Virus record (IMG/VR): IMGVR_UViG_3300027833_000015
Coordinates: 1-64,000 of that record
From: a virus
Direction: 5' to 3' (one strand)
Length of the DNA: 64,000 nucleotides
Below are positions 19,090 to 60,892 of the stretch, piece after piece; the first letter of the stretch is position 1; each line of letters opens with the position of its first letter. The position numbers and the translations under genes were made by a program. The notes beneath the pieces were generated by a model. The model worked only from the letters and a program-made list of their open reading frames with translations. It was not told where the DNA came from and made no database searches.

Positions 19090-19161
19090 CTGGCGAGGCA
19101 GGGATCGAACCTGCGACATCTTCATTAACAGTGAAGCGCACTACCGCTGTGCTACTCGCCA
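19090..19161 (-). tRNA. tRNA-Asn (GUU)
   Basis: 72-nt cloverleaf: acceptor TGGCGAG pairs with CTCGCCA, a D arm with GCAC/GTGC, anticodon stem CTTCA/TGAAG with loop CTGTTAA (anticodon GTT), T arm GCAGG-TTCGATC-CCTGC. G discriminator; CCA is not encoded. It lies inside the early operon between a 55-aa gene and the wHTH gene, so it must be cut from the transcript. Confidence 0.93.
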
Positions 19162-21081: not shown

Positions 21082-21110
21082 ATTGTAATCGAAACGGATT
21101 GACATGTCAA
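21082..21110 (-). promoter_or_regulatory. Sigma70-type early promoter for gp45
   Basis: TTGACA (21110-21105), 17-bp spacer, TACAAT (21087-21082), then AGAGTC. Textbook spacing; lies between the adhesin stop and gp45. Confidence 0.88.
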
Positions 21111-21117
21111 CACTTTC

Positions 21118-22623
21118 TCAGAATGAGAAAGAGTATCCAACGCCAACACCAGTTTCGTCGTTGGTAATTGTTGTAGATAATGTTACTGAGTGTTTGCCAT
21201 CTTCTGTACGATGAGACAAACCAACAGCAGCAGCATCTTCTCCACCATAATTGCCATACCCAAAACCAATTGCAGTCTTACCTACAGTGGCATTTGGAAT
21301 TGCACCCATCGCAGCGATACCAGCAAGACCAGAATATATCTCACTCTTGAGGTGGTCCATATTCTGCTCCAAGTAATCAATGCGTGATGAATTAGTTTCC
21401 ACGTCTTCTGCTAACAGGTCAATGCGCATGTTTGTACTTACAATGCGCTTGCGATTGTCAACAGCGTAATCCATGCTTGCGGCACTACGTTGGTTGCTAG
21501 TGTCTATCTGTGCTTGGAGTTTGTCATCCATGACAATACGGGTATTGGTTTCGGACTGGATCGTCTCGGACAATATGGTGTCTCTAGCGATTGACTCGGA
21601 CTCCACATCAGTAGTATAACTCTCCAGACTACTAATATCAGTGGTATTGGTATCGATACGATCTCCCTGCACGTCCAGACGACCGTCGAGACGGTCTGTT
21701 TCGGAGGTTATACGGGAGTTCAAGAGGTCGTCTCCCGCCTCTCGAGCGTCCGTCTCAGAGGTTATACGGTCACCCAAACGGGCGTCTCCCGCCTCTCGAG
21801 CGTCCGTCTCAGAGGTTATACGGTCACCCAAACGGGCGTCTCCCGTCTCTCTATCGATCGTCTCGGTGCTTATACGGTCACCCAAACGGGTGTCCTCAGT
21901 CTCCCTAGCGTCCGTCTCGGACGTTATACGGGAGTCTAGACGGGTGTCCTCAGTCTCCCTAGCGTCCGTCTCGGACGTTATACGGGAGTCTAGACGGGTG
22001 TCCTCAGTCTCCCTAGCGTCCGTCTCGGAGGTGATACGGGAGTCCAGACGAGCGTCCTCAGTGATAAGAGCGTCCGTCTCGGACGTTATACGGGAGTCTA
22101 GACGAGTGTCCTCAGTGGTCCGAGCGACCGTCTCGGAGGTGATACGGGAGGAATTTGCATCCACCTCATCTGCTTGGTTGAGACTCGATACATCAATATC
22201 AACGTCTTTGCCATATATGTAATCACGACCCTGTGACTTGGCCATATCCTCAACACGGAGGGTCAGCGTATCGCCATCGACTTTGCCTGACTTGGTACGC
22301 ATGTCCTCTTTGTTGACAGTATCAATTTCTTCCCTGAGTTCAGTGTCATCATACGATAGACTGTCCCCAGTGTGGACATAACCATCAGCGTCCCTGCCAT
22401 TATTATTTTTCAGCAGAATATCGCCATCTTCAGTTACAACAGATGAACGACATTTTGATTCGGATGGATTATTAGATGCTTGGCCACCGCATGTGCCTAG
22501 TCTAAATCCGTTTGCGACTTCCTTGTCGGTGGCAGGGGTGCCAGCAACAGTAGCACCGAATGCGCTAACTGTTGTTCCATTAATTGTTGCAATAATTGCT
22601 GCGGTCATAATAGTCTTTTTCAT
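21118..22623 (-). CDS. YadA-like trimeric autotransporter adhesin
   Basis: 501 aa. Starts MKKTIMTAAIIATINGTTV, a signal peptide. A long coiled-coil stalk follows, built of about eight 18-residue units (RITSETDARETEDTRLDS). The C-terminal 80 residues (SEIYSGLAGIAAMGAIPNA, then paired beta strands with Gly and aromatic residues, ending GVGYSFSF) fit the YadA anchor domain (PF03895), with the terminal Phe typical of outer-membrane beta-barrels. In the family three chains form a 12-strand pore and a surface fibre. The ATG at 22623 has GAGGAAG ahead. It lies among early genes, so the fibre is probably placed on the host surface, not in the virion. Confidence 0.88.
   Translation of the reverse strand: MKKTIMTAAIIATINGTTVSAFGATVAGTPATDKEVANGFRLGTCGGQASNNPSESKCRSSVVTEDGDILLKNNNGRDADGYVHTGDSLSYDDTELREEIDTVNKEDMRTKSGKVDGDTLTLRVEDMAKSQGRDYIYGKDVDIDVSSLNQADEVDANSSRITSETVARTTEDTRLDSRITSETDALITEDARLDSRITSETDARETEDTRLDSRITSETDARETEDTRLDSRITSETDARETEDTRLGDRISTETIDRETGDARLGDRITSETDAREAGDARLGDRITSETDAREAGDDLLNSRITSETDRLDGRLDVQGDRIDTNTTDISSLESYTTDVESESIARDTILSETIQSETNTRIVMDDKLQAQIDTSNQRSAASMDYAVDNRKRIVSTNMRIDLLAEDVETNSSRIDYLEQNMDHLKSEIYSGLAGIAAMGAIPNATVGKTAIGFGYGNYGGEDAAAVGLSHRTEDGKHSVTLSTTITNDETGVGVGYSFSF
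21685..22155 (-). repeat. 54-bp tandem repeat encoding the adhesin stalk
   Basis: About eight and a half units of 54 bases (18 codons), some nearly identical (e.g. copies 3-5 all RITSETDARETEDTRL). An 18-residue period equals 7+11, as in mixed heptad/hendecad coiled coils. Copy number is likely to vary by recombination. Confidence 0.85.
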
Positions 22624-22624
22624 T

Positions 22625-22702
22625 TCGACTTCCTCAGTATTTTTCATGATAGTAATTTCTGCATATCTGCAGAGGTTATATCTATACATCATCGGAAGTC
22701 GA
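22625..22702 (-). promoter_or_regulatory. Possible ribosome-site-sequestering leader of the adhesin
   Basis: TCGACTTCC (22702-22694) is exactly complementary to GGAAGTCGA (22633-22625), which contains the adhesin ribosome site. Between them lies a small hairpin CTGCA-GATA-TGCAG (22672-22659). If formed, the 9-bp pairing would hide the site. Base pairing is seen; regulation is inferred. Confidence 0.5.
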
Positions 22703-22716
22703 GAATTTTTACCCAA

Positions 22717-23850
22717 TTATATCGAAGACTCTTCGTCGACAGTTACTGTTTCGTCCACCTTGGAGTACAAGTCCATGAACGCTGTCTTTGTTTCGTCATC
22801 GAAACGGTTGGTGCACATCTCGATCGCAGTCATACGCGAGTCGAAGATTTGGAACGCTTTGACAATATGTACAAGGCGACGAGTTGAGATGATCTCATCA
22901 ACACCACCATCGAAATAAGTCTTGCGGATAATATCTGCCCAGTTGACCAGTTTCTCGATAAACTCTTTGTCAGAGATATGCTTGGCAAGTATCTTGCGCT
23001 CGATTGCAGGAGTGGGATACTCTTGTTCGAGGGTAACAGGGAAACGCTCAAGGAATGCTTCGTTGAGGATGTTAGTCCCCATGAAGTTGCCATCGTCTGA
23101 ACCTTTACCCTTGGTATTAGCAGTCGCGATAACATTGAACCCAGCAGCAGGTTGGATGAAGTCACCAGTCTTCTTGATGAAGTATCCGTTGCCTTCCATG
23201 ATAGACTGGAGGCACATAACCTTCCCAGGACTTACCAGATCGATCTCGTCGAGCAGCAAAGTAGCACCCTGCTCCATTGCTTTGATCACTGGACCTTTGA
23301 AGAATTTGGTCTCACCATCGACCAGTCGGAAACCACCAATGAGGTCGTCTTCGTCAGTTTCTTCGGTGAGGTTGACACGGATAACAGGCAACTTGCTGGC
23401 AGCGTGCACCTGCTCAACCATGTAGGTCTTGCCATTGCCCGACAGACCACTGATGAACAGGGGATAGAACATGCCTGATTTGACAATAGTCTGTACTGTC
23501 TTGAAGTGTCCGAAGGGGACATACATATTGTCCTTGGTCGGTACAAGATTGTCGGTGAACCCAGTGGACTGGGCAGTCAGCGAGACTGCTGGACCAACGG
23601 GAGCAGCAACTGGTGCTACAACACGCGCAACGACTGGTGCGGTCACTCGGACAGCAGCAGGTTTGGACTTGCCCACAGGAGGGAAATGGTACATACCATC
23701 ACCAGCGGAGTTGTTCGCGTTCAGGACGCGATACAGGGAGTTGATGTCATTGTCTTTGGCGAATGACTTGATCTCAATACCTGATAGGAGACGAGGTTCA
23801 TCACCGTATTTGGTGGTTAACAACTCAACTAATAATTTTGCTTTGCTCAT
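22717..23850 (-). CDS. MoxR/CobS-type AAA+ ATPase
   Basis: 377 aa. After a helical N-terminus and an Ala/Pro/Val linker (about 66-95) comes an AAA+ core: Walker A SGLSGNGKTYM, Walker B LLLDEIDLV, sensor 1 NVIATANTKG, and FLERFPVTLEQEYP as the Arg-finger region. This is the MoxR group (also labelled CobS in phages), which act with VWA proteins as metal-insertion or assembly chaperones. Its partner is the next gene upstream. AGAGGAAG before ATG 23850; it has its own copy of the shared promoter cassette. Confidence 0.9.
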   Translation of the reverse strand: MSKAKLLVELLTTKYGDEPRLLSGIEIKSFAKDNDINSLYRVLNANNSAGDGMYHFPPVGKSKPAAVRVTAPVVARVVAPVAAPVGPAVSLTAQSTGFTDNLVPTKDNMYVPFGHFKTVQTIVKSGMFYPLFISGLSGNGKTYMVEQVHAASKLPVIRVNLTEETDEDDLIGGFRLVDGETKFFKGPVIKAMEQGATLLLDEIDLVSPGKVMCLQSIMEGNGYFIKKTGDFIQPAAGFNVIATANTKGKGSDDGNFMGTNILNEAFLERFPVTLEQEYPTPAIERKILAKHISDKEFIEKLVNWADIIRKTYFDGGVDEIISTRRLVHIVKAFQIFDSRMTAIEMCTNRFDDETKTAFMDLYSKVDETVTVDEESSI

Positions 23851-23890
23851 AATATACTTCCTCTTCAATTAAACTTCTAAATCACTCAAC

Positions 23891-23963
23891 TCAGACTATA
23901 TTATCGCTCAATCAGGGTCCAAGAACAAGTTCTAAAAAACCCTGTAGAATCAACAACTTACGC
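23891..23963 (-). repeat. Promoter cassette, copy 1 of 3
   Basis: About 73 bp starting at the stop codon of the VWA gene: AAGTTGTTGATTC, a T-run, GAACTTGTTC, and GATAATATAGTC. Closely similar to 26252-26323 and 26564-26638. Confidence 0.85.
23900..23928 (-). promoter_or_regulatory. Promoter of the MoxR gene
   Basis: TTGTTC (23928-23923), 17-bp spacer, GATAAT (23905-23900). The -35 box forms half of an AGAAC-TT-GTTCT inverted repeat that might be an operator. Confidence 0.7.
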
Positions 23964-26234
23964 TATCTGAGACACTATATCCTGCAGCAGTTTACGAGTC
24001 TGCTTGCTGCTCGTAGCAGCGGAGGCGAATGCACGGGATATAGTACCTTTCTTTGCACCAGCAGCGACCTCATCCATCTTGGACGTTTTCTCTTGGAGGT
24101 TCTTGCCCCACAATACATACATCTGGTCATAACCTGGAGTTGGCACGACTGCGTGAGCACCGCTCTTAATTTCTTTCCATACTGAATCACGGTCGATGTA
24201 TGTTCCTGCCAAGTAGCAGCATGAGTTCAGTACACTACTGCGACCACCATCAACTACAAAGTAACCGAGCATCACCGAACCAGTCACGTCCTTGAATATT
24301 TCGAGCAGACGAGCAGTAGCATTGTCGCCACCACGTTGAGTCCTCAAGACGCGATATACTTTCTGGTTGATGGGACTACGAATAGTCACTACAGATGAAT
24401 CATTGCGCATCAAGTAGTTCAGGCGAGTGTTGCCCTGAAGACCATTGTTTACATACGCTGGGTGCGATTGACCATCAGTCAACAGGATAGTGTTTAACTT
24501 GTCCAGTTTGTACTGCTTGCGGAAGGCAACAGCAACAGGCATCATAGCAATGATTGCGCTGTCAAGTGGAGTACCACCCAAAGAGAATATGCGCGCAGGG
24601 TTGTACCCAACACGATTATTCCGTTGCTGCGAGTATGCACCACCAATGAGGTATTTTGCCATTGTAGTCATCTCAGTCTTGGTCATTCTCTCATTGAAGA
24701 TCTCCAACATACGCAGACGTGGATCAGTGAGGATAGTATCCATTGGCATGTTATCCCAGTCACGTGATTGACCACCTGACAGGTTATCAGTGAAACCATA
24801 TACACGGAACGGAACACCGATAGCGCGACAGAAGTTTACCATCAACAGAGTCTGCTTCACTACTGGAAACATCTGCTCCCACATAGAAGAAGACAGATCA
24901 AGTATCATGAGGAAACCGTGGTTCTTGCCTTCAGGTACTGTAGTGACTTTCTTGAAGATGTCGTCTGTTGTTCGGTAGTGGTTCATCTTGAGTGTATCAA
25001 GAGTACCAGTCTTGGATATTTTAGCACGTGCATGCTGTGTAGCAGACTTCTTCATTTCGAATTCTTTGACCATCAGCGCGATAGACTTCTTGGCAGTGGC
25101 ATACCACTTGTTGTATTGCTCTGTACCTGCTTCGAATAATGCGTCACGGTTTGCTAATTGTTCTTTGCGTCTGTAAATTTCAAAATCATCGGGTTTGTCG
25201 CTGATCTTCGCAGCGTGTTCTTCAGGAGTCTCGTGTAGAAGAACACCAGTGGTCAATTCACGCAGGAGTGTCTTGTATCCGTAGAATTGGTTCTCAAAGA
25301 GACCGTGTGCTGGCAGGTTCAGGTTATAAACCTGACGATCAGCATTGGGTGCATGTTGCTGGTCAATAGCGTCACGCAGTGCTTCGTCTGTCTCAGACCG
25401 TGGTTCGTCAGCAGAAGATTTGCCGCCAGTTTCGCCACTTTCTTTGGCGTCATCTTCGCCTTCTTCGTCTGACTCTTCTTCTTCTTCACCACCAGCGTCA
25501 TCGGAAGTAGGATCGCCATCTTCACCCTCACCCTCACCATCTTCTGGAAGATCACTCAAGTCCCAGTCAGATGTTTCGCCATCTTCGTCTTCGCCACTCA
25601 GGTCATCTTCTGACTCATCGTCGCCATCTTCTTGTGCTTGCTGGTCGTCTTCTGCGTCTTGTTTCTGTTGTTCTTCTTTCTGCTTTTTGCAGAAGGCAAA
25701 CAACTCGTCAGTGACTTCAACAACTTCTTCCCAAGTCTCAGTGCCGCCAACCTTGGCGATCCACTGCTGCTCGTCACGGGCAAACTCGACACCGATAGAG
25801 GAACCACATTTGAAGTATGTATTGAGACGGTCAATCAGTCCCGTCTTGTTGATCTGTTCGATATTTTTGCCAAAGAAACCAGCAGCGAGCAGGTCACGGT
25901 ATGATCGAATAAATGATGTGCGAAGTCCAGGGAATTTGCGCTGGATTAGTTTCTCAATGCGTGCATCTTCTACAACATTGAGGAATGACTTGTAACCTGG
26001 ACCAGCATCACATACAGCGTCATGCCAACCTTCTTCTGGAGTAAACAGTGCGTGGCCAACTTCGTGGCCAGTCAGGTGGTCTTCGGTATCTTTGGACATA
26101 TCAGACCACATAGGCAGGGTCAGGATACGGTCACGGACGTTAAATGATGCAGTCTTACAGTTCTCCTGCACTACTGTTATGTTCTCAGCAGCGAGTAGTT
26201 TTGCTAGGACGTTATTTCCGTGTTCTGCTTTCAT
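23958..26234 (-). CDS. VWA-domain protein with N-terminal zincin-like HEVGH motif (CobT-like)
   Basis: 758 aa. LTGHEVGHALFTPEEGWHD (about 55-73) has HExxH as in zinc peptidases, with E92 in VVEDARIEKL a possible third ligand. A very acidic low-complexity stretch covers about 190-285. The C-terminal third is a von Willebrand A domain with MIDAS DLSSSM, a TPLDS threonine and LLTDGQS. This layout is known from phage CobT/peptidase-like proteins paired with MoxR ATPases. Probably a metal- and ATPase-dependent chaperone or protease; no substrate is known. ATG at 26234 chosen because GAGGAG is then at proper distance. Confidence 0.85.
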   Translation of the reverse strand: MKAEHGNNVLAKLLAAENITVVQENCKTASFNVRDRILTLPMWSDMSKDTEDHLTGHEVGHALFTPEEGWHDAVCDAGPGYKSFLNVVEDARIEKLIQRKFPGLRTSFIRSYRDLLAAGFFGKNIEQINKTGLIDRLNTYFKCGSSIGVEFARDEQQWIAKVGGTETWEEVVEVTDELFAFCKKQKEEQQKQDAEDDQQAQEDGDDESEDDLSGEDEDGETSDWDLSDLPEDGEGEGEDGDPTSDDAGGEEEEESDEEGEDDAKESGETGGKSSADEPRSETDEALRDAIDQQHAPNADRQVYNLNLPAHGLFENQFYGYKTLLRELTTGVLLHETPEEHAAKISDKPDDFEIYRRKEQLANRDALFEAGTEQYNKWYATAKKSIALMVKEFEMKKSATQHARAKISKTGTLDTLKMNHYRTTDDIFKKVTTVPEGKNHGFLMILDLSSSMWEQMFPVVKQTLLMVNFCRAIGVPFRVYGFTDNLSGGQSRDWDNMPMDTILTDPRLRMLEIFNERMTKTEMTTMAKYLIGGAYSQQRNNRVGYNPARIFSLGGTPLDSAIIAMMPVAVAFRKQYKLDKLNTILLTDGQSHPAYVNNGLQGNTRLNYLMRNDSSVVTIRSPINQKVYRVLRTQRGGDNATARLLEIFKDVTGSVMLGYFVVDGGRSSVLNSCCYLAGTYIDRDSVWKEIKSGAHAVVPTPGYDQMYVLWGKNLQEKTSKMDEVAAGAKKGTISRAFASAATSSKQTRKLLQDIVSQIA

Positions 26235-26251
26235 ATACATTTCTCCTCAAT

Positions 26252-26323
26252 TCAGACTATATTATCGCACAATTCATGTACAAGAACAAGTTCCAAAAAA
26301 CTGAATAGAATCAACAACTTACG
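26252..26323 (-). repeat. Promoter cassette, copy 2 of 3
   Basis: Begins at the stop codon of the 76-aa gene and shares nearly every feature of copy 1: AAGTTGTTGATTCTA, TTTTTT, GAACTTGTTCTTG and GATAATATAGTCTGA. Confidence 0.85.
26261..26289 (-). promoter_or_regulatory. Promoter of the VWA/zincin gene
   Basis: TTGTTC (26289-26284), 17-bp spacer, GATAAT (26266-26261). The -35 is within the GAAC-TT-GTTC inverted repeat. Confidence 0.7.
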
Positions 26324-26549
26324 CCATCTGCCTGTGGGAATATATGTCCCATTTCTCAACAATTGGTTGTCCGTATGCATCCTCGTCGACTGCGATATAT
26401 GCAACAGTCTTCAACACACGAGCATAGCGGAAACCATCGTTGGTCAGGAGTTTGTGGGGGAATTCCCAAGAGGCAGTGTTCTCGCCTTCATCATTGGGCA
26501 CATAGGTATGAGCACCCTTGACATCTTTCTCAATAAACGATCCAAACAT
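26319..26549 (-). CDS. Small partner gene of the MoxR/VWA module, 76 aa
   Basis: Starts MFGSFIEKDVKGAHTYVPN; a single beta-rich domain, ending KWDIYSHRQMA. GAGGAGAG lies before the ATG at 26549. Its promoter is the third copy of the cassette that also drives the MoxR and VWA genes, so the three are probably coordinately expressed. No family recognised; a cofactor or substrate of the complex is possible. Confidence 0.78.
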   Translation of the reverse strand: MFGSFIEKDVKGAHTYVPNDEGENTASWEFPHKLLTNDGFRYARVLKTVAYIAVDEDAYGQPIVEKWDIYSHRQMA

Positions 26550-26563
26550 AATCTCTCTCCTCA

Positions 26564-26638
26564 ATCAGAACACCTATTATCCCGCAAATAGGGTACAAGG
26601 ACAAGTTCGAGAAAACTGAATGAAATCAACAACTTACT
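26564..26638 (-). repeat. Promoter cassette, copy 3 of 3
   Basis: Most diverged copy; keeps AAGTTGTTGATTTC at the stop codon, ATTCAGTTTTC, GAACTTGTCC and GATAATAGG. Confidence 0.8.
26576..26604 (-). promoter_or_regulatory. Promoter of the 76-aa gene
   Basis: TTGTCC (26604-26599), 17-bp spacer, GATAAT (26581-26576). Confidence 0.65.
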
Positions 26639-59245: not shown

Positions 59246-60892
59246 TTAATCGTCATACCGTACATACAGGGTGTATGTTTCTATAAGGGAAGATGTACTC
59301 TGAACGAGTTGGCCACCGTACTGCACCTGTCCCGTGAAATTCTGATTGATGAATCCTCTTGTACCGAGGAACGGGCGTGTGCCTTGGAAGTTTCTAGTGC
59401 CTTGGAAGTTTCTAGTGCCTTGGAAGTTTCGACTGCCTTGGAAGTTTCGAGTGCCTTGGAAAGATCGCGAACCTTGAAAACTCCGCGATCCAAGAAAGTT
59501 GGTGTTTCTAGCACCAATATAATATCGGGGTCCACTAAAGAAAGCAATGCGAGCACCCGCATATTGGATGTTTCGAGATCCAGCATAATATCCTACGAAC
59601 TGTCTCGTTCCAGCAAACTTTTCTTGACTGGCAAATTGTTGGAAAAATTGCTGTCCACCCTTACCGCTGTTTCGAACTCCCGCATACTGTACTTGACTTG
59701 CGAACTGTTGTGATGCGCTCACGTATGTTCCACCAAAGTCGCTGTTTACCGTCCCCCCGTATTGTCCGCTAAAAGCATTGAGGAACTGGTTGTAGTAATC
59801 CCCTAATATTCCACCATCCACCCACCTGTTGCCAGCGAAGTAATACTGTGGTTGCCCCACGAAATTCACGTTACCAACTGTCCACGAAGTTTGTACTCCA
59901 TTCGTCCATGATAACAATGCACTCGTATAGTCTGCTTGTGCACTTGCAAAGTCTGTTTGTGCGCTTGTAAAGTCTGCTTGTGCACTTGTATAGTCTGCTT
60001 GTCCACTTACGAAATACTCTTGTGGTGACTGGCGTGTTCCTGCATAATCTACATCGCCAACGTATTGTACTACATTAGTATCTCGACGTCTGTCTGTTGC
60101 TGTTCCTCTTGCTGTCCAAGACCCAGAATACCCAGCAGCGGTGGGAGTGCCTTGAGAAGATGAAAGTAATAGGTAGTCGCCTATGCCAGTGCTGGCGCGT
60201 AATTTCATTGTCAGATATGCATAATACTCTGCCATCTGTGCCTCTGTCAAACCCTTTACTGCGGGTTTTGAGGAAACCACATCGTACACTACGTTATTAC
60301 CAAGAGACCCTGCCCATGGAGCAGAGGTAGTTGGAGTGGAAAGATTGGTCTTTCTGTAGATGTCATACCCCACACTGCTTCCGTAGTCGTCTACGAAAAT
60401 GTTCTCGTCCCAAAGTTCATGTGTAGCAGCATCTGGGTTAGATGATGCGAGGACAAAAGTTCCAGGGTACTGATCGTCAATTGCCGTGCTGTATGACGCT
60501 TTGACTTCTAAACTCAACATGGCATCAGTCATTTTATATATCTGACCATCGCTGTCCGCAGAAAGAATCGGTGCAAACGAAGGCGATGTATATGCATCAT
60601 CTAACTGATGGAATGGGTAGGCAGTCTCAGTGTATTGTATTTCCGAGTTAGTTCCATGAGAACCAGTTGCAACATCATACTGCGTATCGGTCGCTGTACC
60701 TATGAGCGTGGATGTAGTTGCGTTGAAACATACAGATCCGTTGTAGCGATCAGTCGATGCTGCGTATGTATCTACGAGATACTCGCCTGCCTTTTCCCAT
60801 GCATATGCCAATGATGCGGCATTCACTTGCTCCAAATTTCCATCAGTATCTTTGATGGTCAAAGGATACTTTGTCATATGTTCTGATGACAT
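59246..60892 (-). CDS. Virion protein with FQGTRN/YAGxR repeats
   Basis: 548 aa. N-terminal MTKYPLTIKDTDGNLEQVNA domain, a helical AQADYTSAQADFTSAQTD stretch of seven-residue units, and a C-terminal half full of aromatic-Gly-Thr/Ser-Arg repeats (NFQGTRNFQGSR). It is a paralogue of the next gene upstream, with the same order of domains. Likely a tail-surface or fibre protein. ATG at 60892; alternative ATG at 60877. Confidence 0.8.
   Translation of the reverse strand: MSSEHMTKYPLTIKDTDGNLEQVNAASLAYAWEKAGEYLVDTYAASTDRYNGSVCFNATTSTLIGTATDTQYDVATGSHGTNSEIQYTETAYPFHQLDDAYTSPSFAPILSADSDGQIYKMTDAMLSLEVKASYSTAIDDQYPGTFVLASSNPDAATHELWDENIFVDDYGSSVGYDIYRKTNLSTPTTSAPWAGSLGNNVVYDVVSSKPAVKGLTEAQMAEYYAYLTMKLRASTGIGDYLLLSSSQGTPTAAGYSGSWTARGTATDRRRDTNVVQYVGDVDYAGTRQSPQEYFVSGQADYTSAQADFTSAQTDFASAQADYTSALLSWTNGVQTSWTVGNVNFVGQPQYYFAGNRWVDGGILGDYYNQFLNAFSGQYGGTVNSDFGGTYVSASQQFASQVQYAGVRNSGKGGQQFFQQFASQEKFAGTRQFVGYYAGSRNIQYAGARIAFFSGPRYYIGARNTNFLGSRSFQGSRSFQGTRNFQGSRNFQGTRNFQGTRNFQGTRPFLGTRGFINQNFTGQVQYGGQLVQSTSSLIETYTLYVRYDD
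59370..59500 (-). repeat. 18-bp tandem repeat coding FQGTRN/FQGSRN
   Basis: Repeats of ccttggaagtttctagtg (plus strand) and close variants, about six to seven copies. Likely variable in number. Confidence 0.85.

Follow-up and report, generated by a model that had tools for sequence, protein, structure and literature searches.

A probable mobile early-promoter cassette with an IHF-type site at gene junctions of an uncultured T4-like virus

Introduction

The early promoter PL of phage lambda is activated by IHF. For the early promoter Pe of phage Mu, PMC3820752 notes the effect of deleting the IHF site. We describe here a predicted promoter of an uncultured virus that resembles both of them in having an IHF site, in our case a predicted one, upstream of a sigma70-type early promoter. 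It differs from them in that the predicted site lies within what is probably a mobile, multi-copy cassette of a T4-like virus and, by the spacing that we infer, very near the -35 box.

T4-type phages of the RB49 and phi1 kind reportedly carry PeSLs, promoter-early stem-loop cassettes. The studies of these elements (Arbiol 2010, doi 10.1093/gbe/evq006; Comeau 2014, doi 10.1093/gbe/evu129) are cited in PMC4503421. PeSLs are, as the present cassettes seem to be, short repeated intergenic early-promoter cassettes of T4-like phages, located amid small variable genes and associated with modular shuffling. The genes at which our cassette stands have known counterparts as well. Both cobS and cobT are listed among the genes of cyano- and pelagimyophages (PMC7029224), and this pair (PMC7029224, PMC3037559) shares with our locus the protein families and the gp46/gp45/gp44 neighbourhood, the difference being that the cyanophage record KJ019063 has no cassette.

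Results

The locus and its genes

The record IMGVR_UViG_3300027833_000015 is 153,883 bp long, and the window is its first 64 kb. Homologues of gp44, gp45 and gp46 surround the cassette locus and give the T4-like affiliation. Three genes of the minus strand are concerned: a MoxR/CobS-like AAA+ ATPase of 377 aa (22717..23850; phrog_249, E 4.5e-115; AAA_5, E 4e-17), a 760-aa protein with a zincin motif (HEVGH) and a VWA MIDAS motif (DLSSS) (23958..26240; phrog_459, E 8e-172), and a 76-aa protein (26319..26549; phrog_23785) that is the cargo of the third cassette. The 760-aa protein is the CobT-like 'peptidase' of T4-like phages; a Pfam search with it gave no match, and the residues of both motifs are invariant in alignment A1, which has three rows, the single-protein locus search having returned one close relative. 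The AAA+ domain, the VWA MIDAS motif and the adjacency of the two genes are all present, as for a MoxR/CobS-like AAA+ protein with a CobT-like VWA partner. The pair lies between gp46 and gp45/gp44, in the same order as in cyanophage KJ019063, and therefore represents the usual marine T4-like gene order and no new module.

MoxR and gp45, which in the cyanophage are separated by no more than a small ORF, have between them here a 532-aa coiled adhesin-like protein (21118-22716; phrog_17426 adhesin, phrog_8062) whose gene contains a seven-fold repeat of 54 nt. Between gp44 and gp45 there is a tRNA gene (19090-19161; Rfam, 69.8 bits), the only member of a known RNA family detected from 18 to 32 kb.

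Anatomy of the cassette

The first-pass annotation had placed one copy of a common promoter cassette before each of the three genes, and all three were found at these places on the minus strand. Cassette 1 (23882..23961; nhmmer E 8.5e-19; 54.7 bits with the R1 model) spans the distance from the VWA stop codon to MoxR and comprises the IHF-type site, the promoter and the leader; cassette 2 (26240..26322; E 1.8e-18) precedes VWA and cassette 3 (26554..26637; E 1.5e-17) the 76-aa gene. The shared elements that had been listed were largely recovered: AAGTTGTTGATT at the stop codon, the T-run and GATAAT occur in 3/3. Only copies 1 and 2 contain GAACTTGTTC exactly; copy 3 has GAACTTGTCC in its place, and the palindrome is broken.

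At about 85 bp the cassette is the entire junction between two ORFs. From 5' to 3' it reads stop codon, IHF-type block, T-run, sigma70-type promoter and Shine-Dalgarno sequence. In most copies the stop of the upstream ORF is a TAA at cassette positions 2-4 or a TGA 8 nt further on (10-12), and the 3' edge is the Shine-Dalgarno sequence of the next ORF. The promoter has the form TTGYYY-17-GATAAT/TATAAT in all 17 copies found in the record (see below), that is, a weak -35, a 17-nt spacer and a good -10. The -35 hexamers are TTGTCT, TTGTCC, TTGTTC, TTGCCT and TTGCTT, mostly TTGTYY, and none of the 17 has TTGACA. On the minus strand of the locus, the -35 and -10 (GATAAT) boxes lie at 23923..23928 (TTGTTC) and 23900..23905 in cassette 1, at 26284..26289 (TTGTTC) and 26261..26266 in cassette 2, and at 26599..26604 (TTGTCC) and 26576..26581 in cassette 3. 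Extrapolating from the -10 box, we place the IHF core at about -67 to -55 and the T-tract at about -46 to -41.

TTGACA-class promoter-like sites exist elsewhere in the record (39), and only 1/39 has an IHF consensus nearby. In two cassette-free phages (L063, L064) the VWA and MoxR genes have TTGACT...TATAAT and TTGACA...GATAAT promoters instead. This contrast of a weak -35 with an IHF site against a strong -35 without one suggests that IHF makes up for the poor -35.

The IHF-type block

IHF binds a 13-bp core with the consensus WATCAANNNNTTR, the second half of the site being merely AT-rich (PMC7581858). The conserved 5' block of the cassette is TAAGTTGTTGATT; its reverse complement, AATCAACAACTTA, fits this consensus exactly. 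On the plus strand the core stands at 23948..23960 in cassette 1, where it is preceded on its WATCAA side by an A6 tract, at 26309..26321 in cassette 2 and at 26624..26636 in cassette 3. It agrees with the consensus in 15 of the 17 copies, the remaining two being off by one base each, and in 15/15 consensus copies runs of 3-6 A occur within 16 nt upstream, on the side where the AT-rich element is expected (that of WATCAA). The T-run of the cassette corresponds to the A-tract, lying some 8 nt from WATCAA and on its proper side, an arrangement that we take to resemble the lambda H' site.

Outside the cassettes the core matches 9 times in the whole record, where a first-order Markov model expects 8.6; together with an upstream A5+ tract the same model expects 0.1. 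From this background rate we estimate a chance of about 0.4% that an 85-bp sequence would contain the core on either strand, and a far lower one with the A-tract, for a match that was noticed after the fact. Among 28 diverse copies, for which some of the relatives were found with search patterns that include the block, the columns that are invariant or at least 90% conserved include TAA and TTGATT, which are bases that IHF specifies, though the TAA and TGA inside the block may owe part of their conservation to use as stop codons. The four NNNN columns of the consensus vary (GTTG, GTTA, GTCA, CCTA, CCTG, CCCA). A phage-encoded IHF or HU as the binder was considered and rejected, no homologue being detectable in the record; IHF action would therefore require a host protein.

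Copies in the rest of the record

With the repeats as input, an nhmmer profile identified 17 copies in the 153,883-bp record, 17/17 on the minus strand and with E<=2e-15, which being related by descent do not count as independent events. The next best match had E=0.85, leaving a clear gap to noise. The 14 additional copies lie at 95.4-95.7, 123.9-128.8, 140.9-141.8 and 145.9-152.1 kb of the record and precede other, mostly small and unrelated genes, among them those of an HD-domain protein, a DUF7717 protein and several small proteins with no Pfam match. The cassette had been proposed as a regulatory unit of one gene module, with a common promoter type found before unrelated genes too as the opposite case, and this second situation is what the genome itself contains. 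Growth of the module by local duplication of the cassette likewise finds no support. Identity among the trio is 0.63-0.76, and the closest non-orthologous copies are elsewhere: the copy at 23961 pairs best with that at 128409 (0.78), the one at 26322 with 123931 (0.83), and the one at 26637 with a copy in another phage (0.83).

At record positions 124062-124093 (L006:62-93) there is a half cassette, with the IHF block and the T-rich part but no promoter; a GC-rich inverted repeat and the full cassette at 123931 follow immediately downstream.

The VWA-MoxR locus in relatives

The association of the cassette with VWA and MoxR, seen at first in this phage, holds far beyond it. All 11 cassette-bearing relatives with both genes on the contig (G001-G006, G011, G013, G015, G026 and G016; VWA identity from 97% down to ~30%) have one cassette before VWA and another in the VWA-MoxR junction, the latter directly before MoxR in seven and before a small intervening ORF in four. 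The contigs are partial. G013, the 97% relative, has the same trio. The trio is also complete in G011 (MoxR 75% identical, VWA ~50% over its segments, the 76-aa homologue 65%), which has two more cassettes elsewhere. In G015 and G026 there are cassettes at VWA and MoxR and a third that precedes an unrelated 91-aa gene.

We also examined 80 further VWA loci at 29-41% identity, with MoxR downstream on the same strand in 69. Clear cassettes were present in seven of these phages (G001-G006 and G016), which were noticed through a cassette in the VWA neighbourhood itself. A sequence model run over their whole contigs (227 kb) detected 15 cassettes. VWA follows seven of them and MoxR directly follows three; another four lie in the VWA-MoxR junction, each leading into an ORF of 63-78 aa ahead of MoxR, and the last leads into a 70-aa ORF immediately upstream of VWA. 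The same whole-contig scan of the remaining 73, many of them short, showed no strong cassette and only a few weak or partial matches; none of these phages had strong cassettes at other places while lacking one at VWA. In distant phages the slots that flank VWA are taken, as by the 76-aa gene here, by various ORFs of 63-78 aa, each with its own cassette (L062:3627-3904, L062:6253-6530, L087:6265, L071:6274, L039:6784).

Searches with two consensus forms gave no blastn match in named phages, and the cassette pattern was found in no bacterial genome. As judged from these contigs, the cassette is a general early-region promoter type of its lineage and, where present, a constant feature of VWA-MoxR, often with an extra small gene.

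The 76-aa gene

Because it carried the same cassette, the 76-aa protein had been taken as part of the MoxR-VWA system. The gene does have a cassette in 5/5 phages where it was found (G000, G013, G011, G009, G025), and in three of them it adjoins VWA. In G009 its neighbour is a DUF7717 gene with its own cassette, and in G025 a ligase-like gene lies upstream of it and VWA is missing downstream. It occurs in 0/80 of the distant VWA neighbourhoods, and other small ORFs with a cassette occupy its slot elsewhere. Homologues were found in Limnohabitans phage DC31 and in Sinorhizobium phages, which are not among the organisms with a VWA match. The location of gene and cassette beside unrelated genes, together with these replacements, speaks against the proposed membership; by its distribution the 76-aa gene is exchangeable cargo travelling with its promoter and no marked member of the MoxR-VWA system. 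Since the copies share sequence, homologous recombination between them could swap gene and cassette as a unit.

Discussion

The nearest known kind of cassette is the PeSL of RB49-like phages. A sigma70-like promoter at intergenic junctions, multiple copies and the shuffling of gene and cassette are common to both. Such a cassette in the strict sense would also end upstream transcription through its stem-loop, a possibility that we consider hardly credible here in spite of the PeSL-like layout and shuffling and of hairpins of -12 to -21 kcal/mol in 4/17 copies. Most copies have no stable hairpin (only these four fold stably), a stem followed by a T-tail occurs in none of the 17, and the T-run is located 5' of the possible stem and not 3', so that the geometry of an intrinsic terminator is missing. 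An intrinsic terminator was rejected on this ground, the evidence including a terminator scan of L006. As the terminator stem-loop is lacking, we call the cassette PeSL-like and not a PeSL. In the RB49 junctions that we inspected the promoters are of the TTGACA type, frequently overlapped at the -10 box by a GC-rich dyad, and a stem with T-tail is present in some, whereas the cassettes here have an IHF-type site, a weak -35 and no stem with T-tail. In the first 50 kb of RB49 there are six matches to the IHF core, none of them beside the junction promoters inspected.

The dyads around the -35 box have been read in another way. The first-pass annotation saw in copies 1 and 2 outer arms that can pair although their bases differ, hinting at a conserved operator. 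The arms do exist in these copies (6 bp and ~5 bp; absent in copy 3, longest run 2), and arms of 5-7 bp occur in 6/17. As a conserved operator, however, they show no covariation in fixed registers (p 0.1-0.5) and only a weak signal in a free register (diverse set, p 0.08; this record, p 0.012). Nested inverted repeats made of GAACTTGTTC and the outer arms might bind a phage repressor or activator of a MoxR-VWA-76aa regulon; the inner dyad is found again in other bases (AGAACTTGTTCT and AGACTTTGTCT), and of all even centres scanned only its own has an excess of self-pairing (p 0.001). This last signal vanishes on permutation within phage groups (p 0.14), the 5-bp inner dyad is found in only two copies while many have runs of 2, and distant copies retain the IHF block and mostly not the dyad. 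Permutation tests gave no support to an operator with covarying arms; the operator reading of the dyads is not supported, and we regard a phage operator as quite improbable. A less remote alternative, still an unlikely one, is a plain sigma70 early promoter with no IHF. The T-tract alone could serve as a proximal UP element, for which its position (~-46 to -41) is suitable, and the 5' block would be kept for stop codons, since the upstream genes use both TAA and TGA, and as recombination homology. This leaves aside that T9, T10, T13 and T14 are conserved though not needed as stops, that variation falls at the NNNN of the IHF consensus, and that a distant clade retains TAAGTTATTGATT while its -35 region changes.

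We think it probable that the repeats are a mobile early-promoter cassette aided by host IHF, in which an IHF-type site and a sigma70 promoter with a weak -35 fill the ORF junctions. A bend made by host IHF immediately upstream of RNA polymerase would offset the weak -35, and the outcome would be strong early transcription of whichever gene comes next. Recombination between like copies would exchange units of gene and cassette. All of this, from the binding of IHF and the activity and early timing of the promoter to recombination as the mechanism, is predicted here from sequence. If correct, an uncultured phage lineage drives many of its early genes by means of a host DNA-bending protein, and a host of proteobacterial type, with IHF, would be predicted. 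Cyanobacteria, which the best-known relatives infect, are not known to possess IHF.

More tentatively, the weak, IHF-coupled promoter may constitute a dispersed IHF-dependent early regulon, whose cassette would have belonged first to VWA-MoxR (cobT/cobS-like) and later spread with small cargo genes across the early region in the lineage to which this window belongs; the VWA-MoxR locus keeps a cassette in every cassette-bearing relative examined. This constant link suggests that dependable expression is needed for both genes, on whose function in phages opinion is not settled. The cassette also gives a sequence handle on the swapping of gene modules in T4-like phages.

Other promoter-like sites and repeats in the record

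Before gp45 and other genes stands a second type of promoter, TTGACAT..CAATCC(C)GTT..TATAAT, whose spacer is conserved; it lies at 21110, 31607 and 10449 on the minus strand and at record positions 93128 and 94613. At 21110 it includes TTGACATGTCAA, a palindrome over the -35 box. At record positions 93075-93128 (L004:9075-9128) there is one promoter-like site on each strand, the two overlapping almost fully as divergent promoters. Tandem repeats at 2661-2809, 130-225, 59357-59482 and 59897-60022, with units of 18, 24, 18 and 21 nt, are probably in frame and belong to structural proteins.
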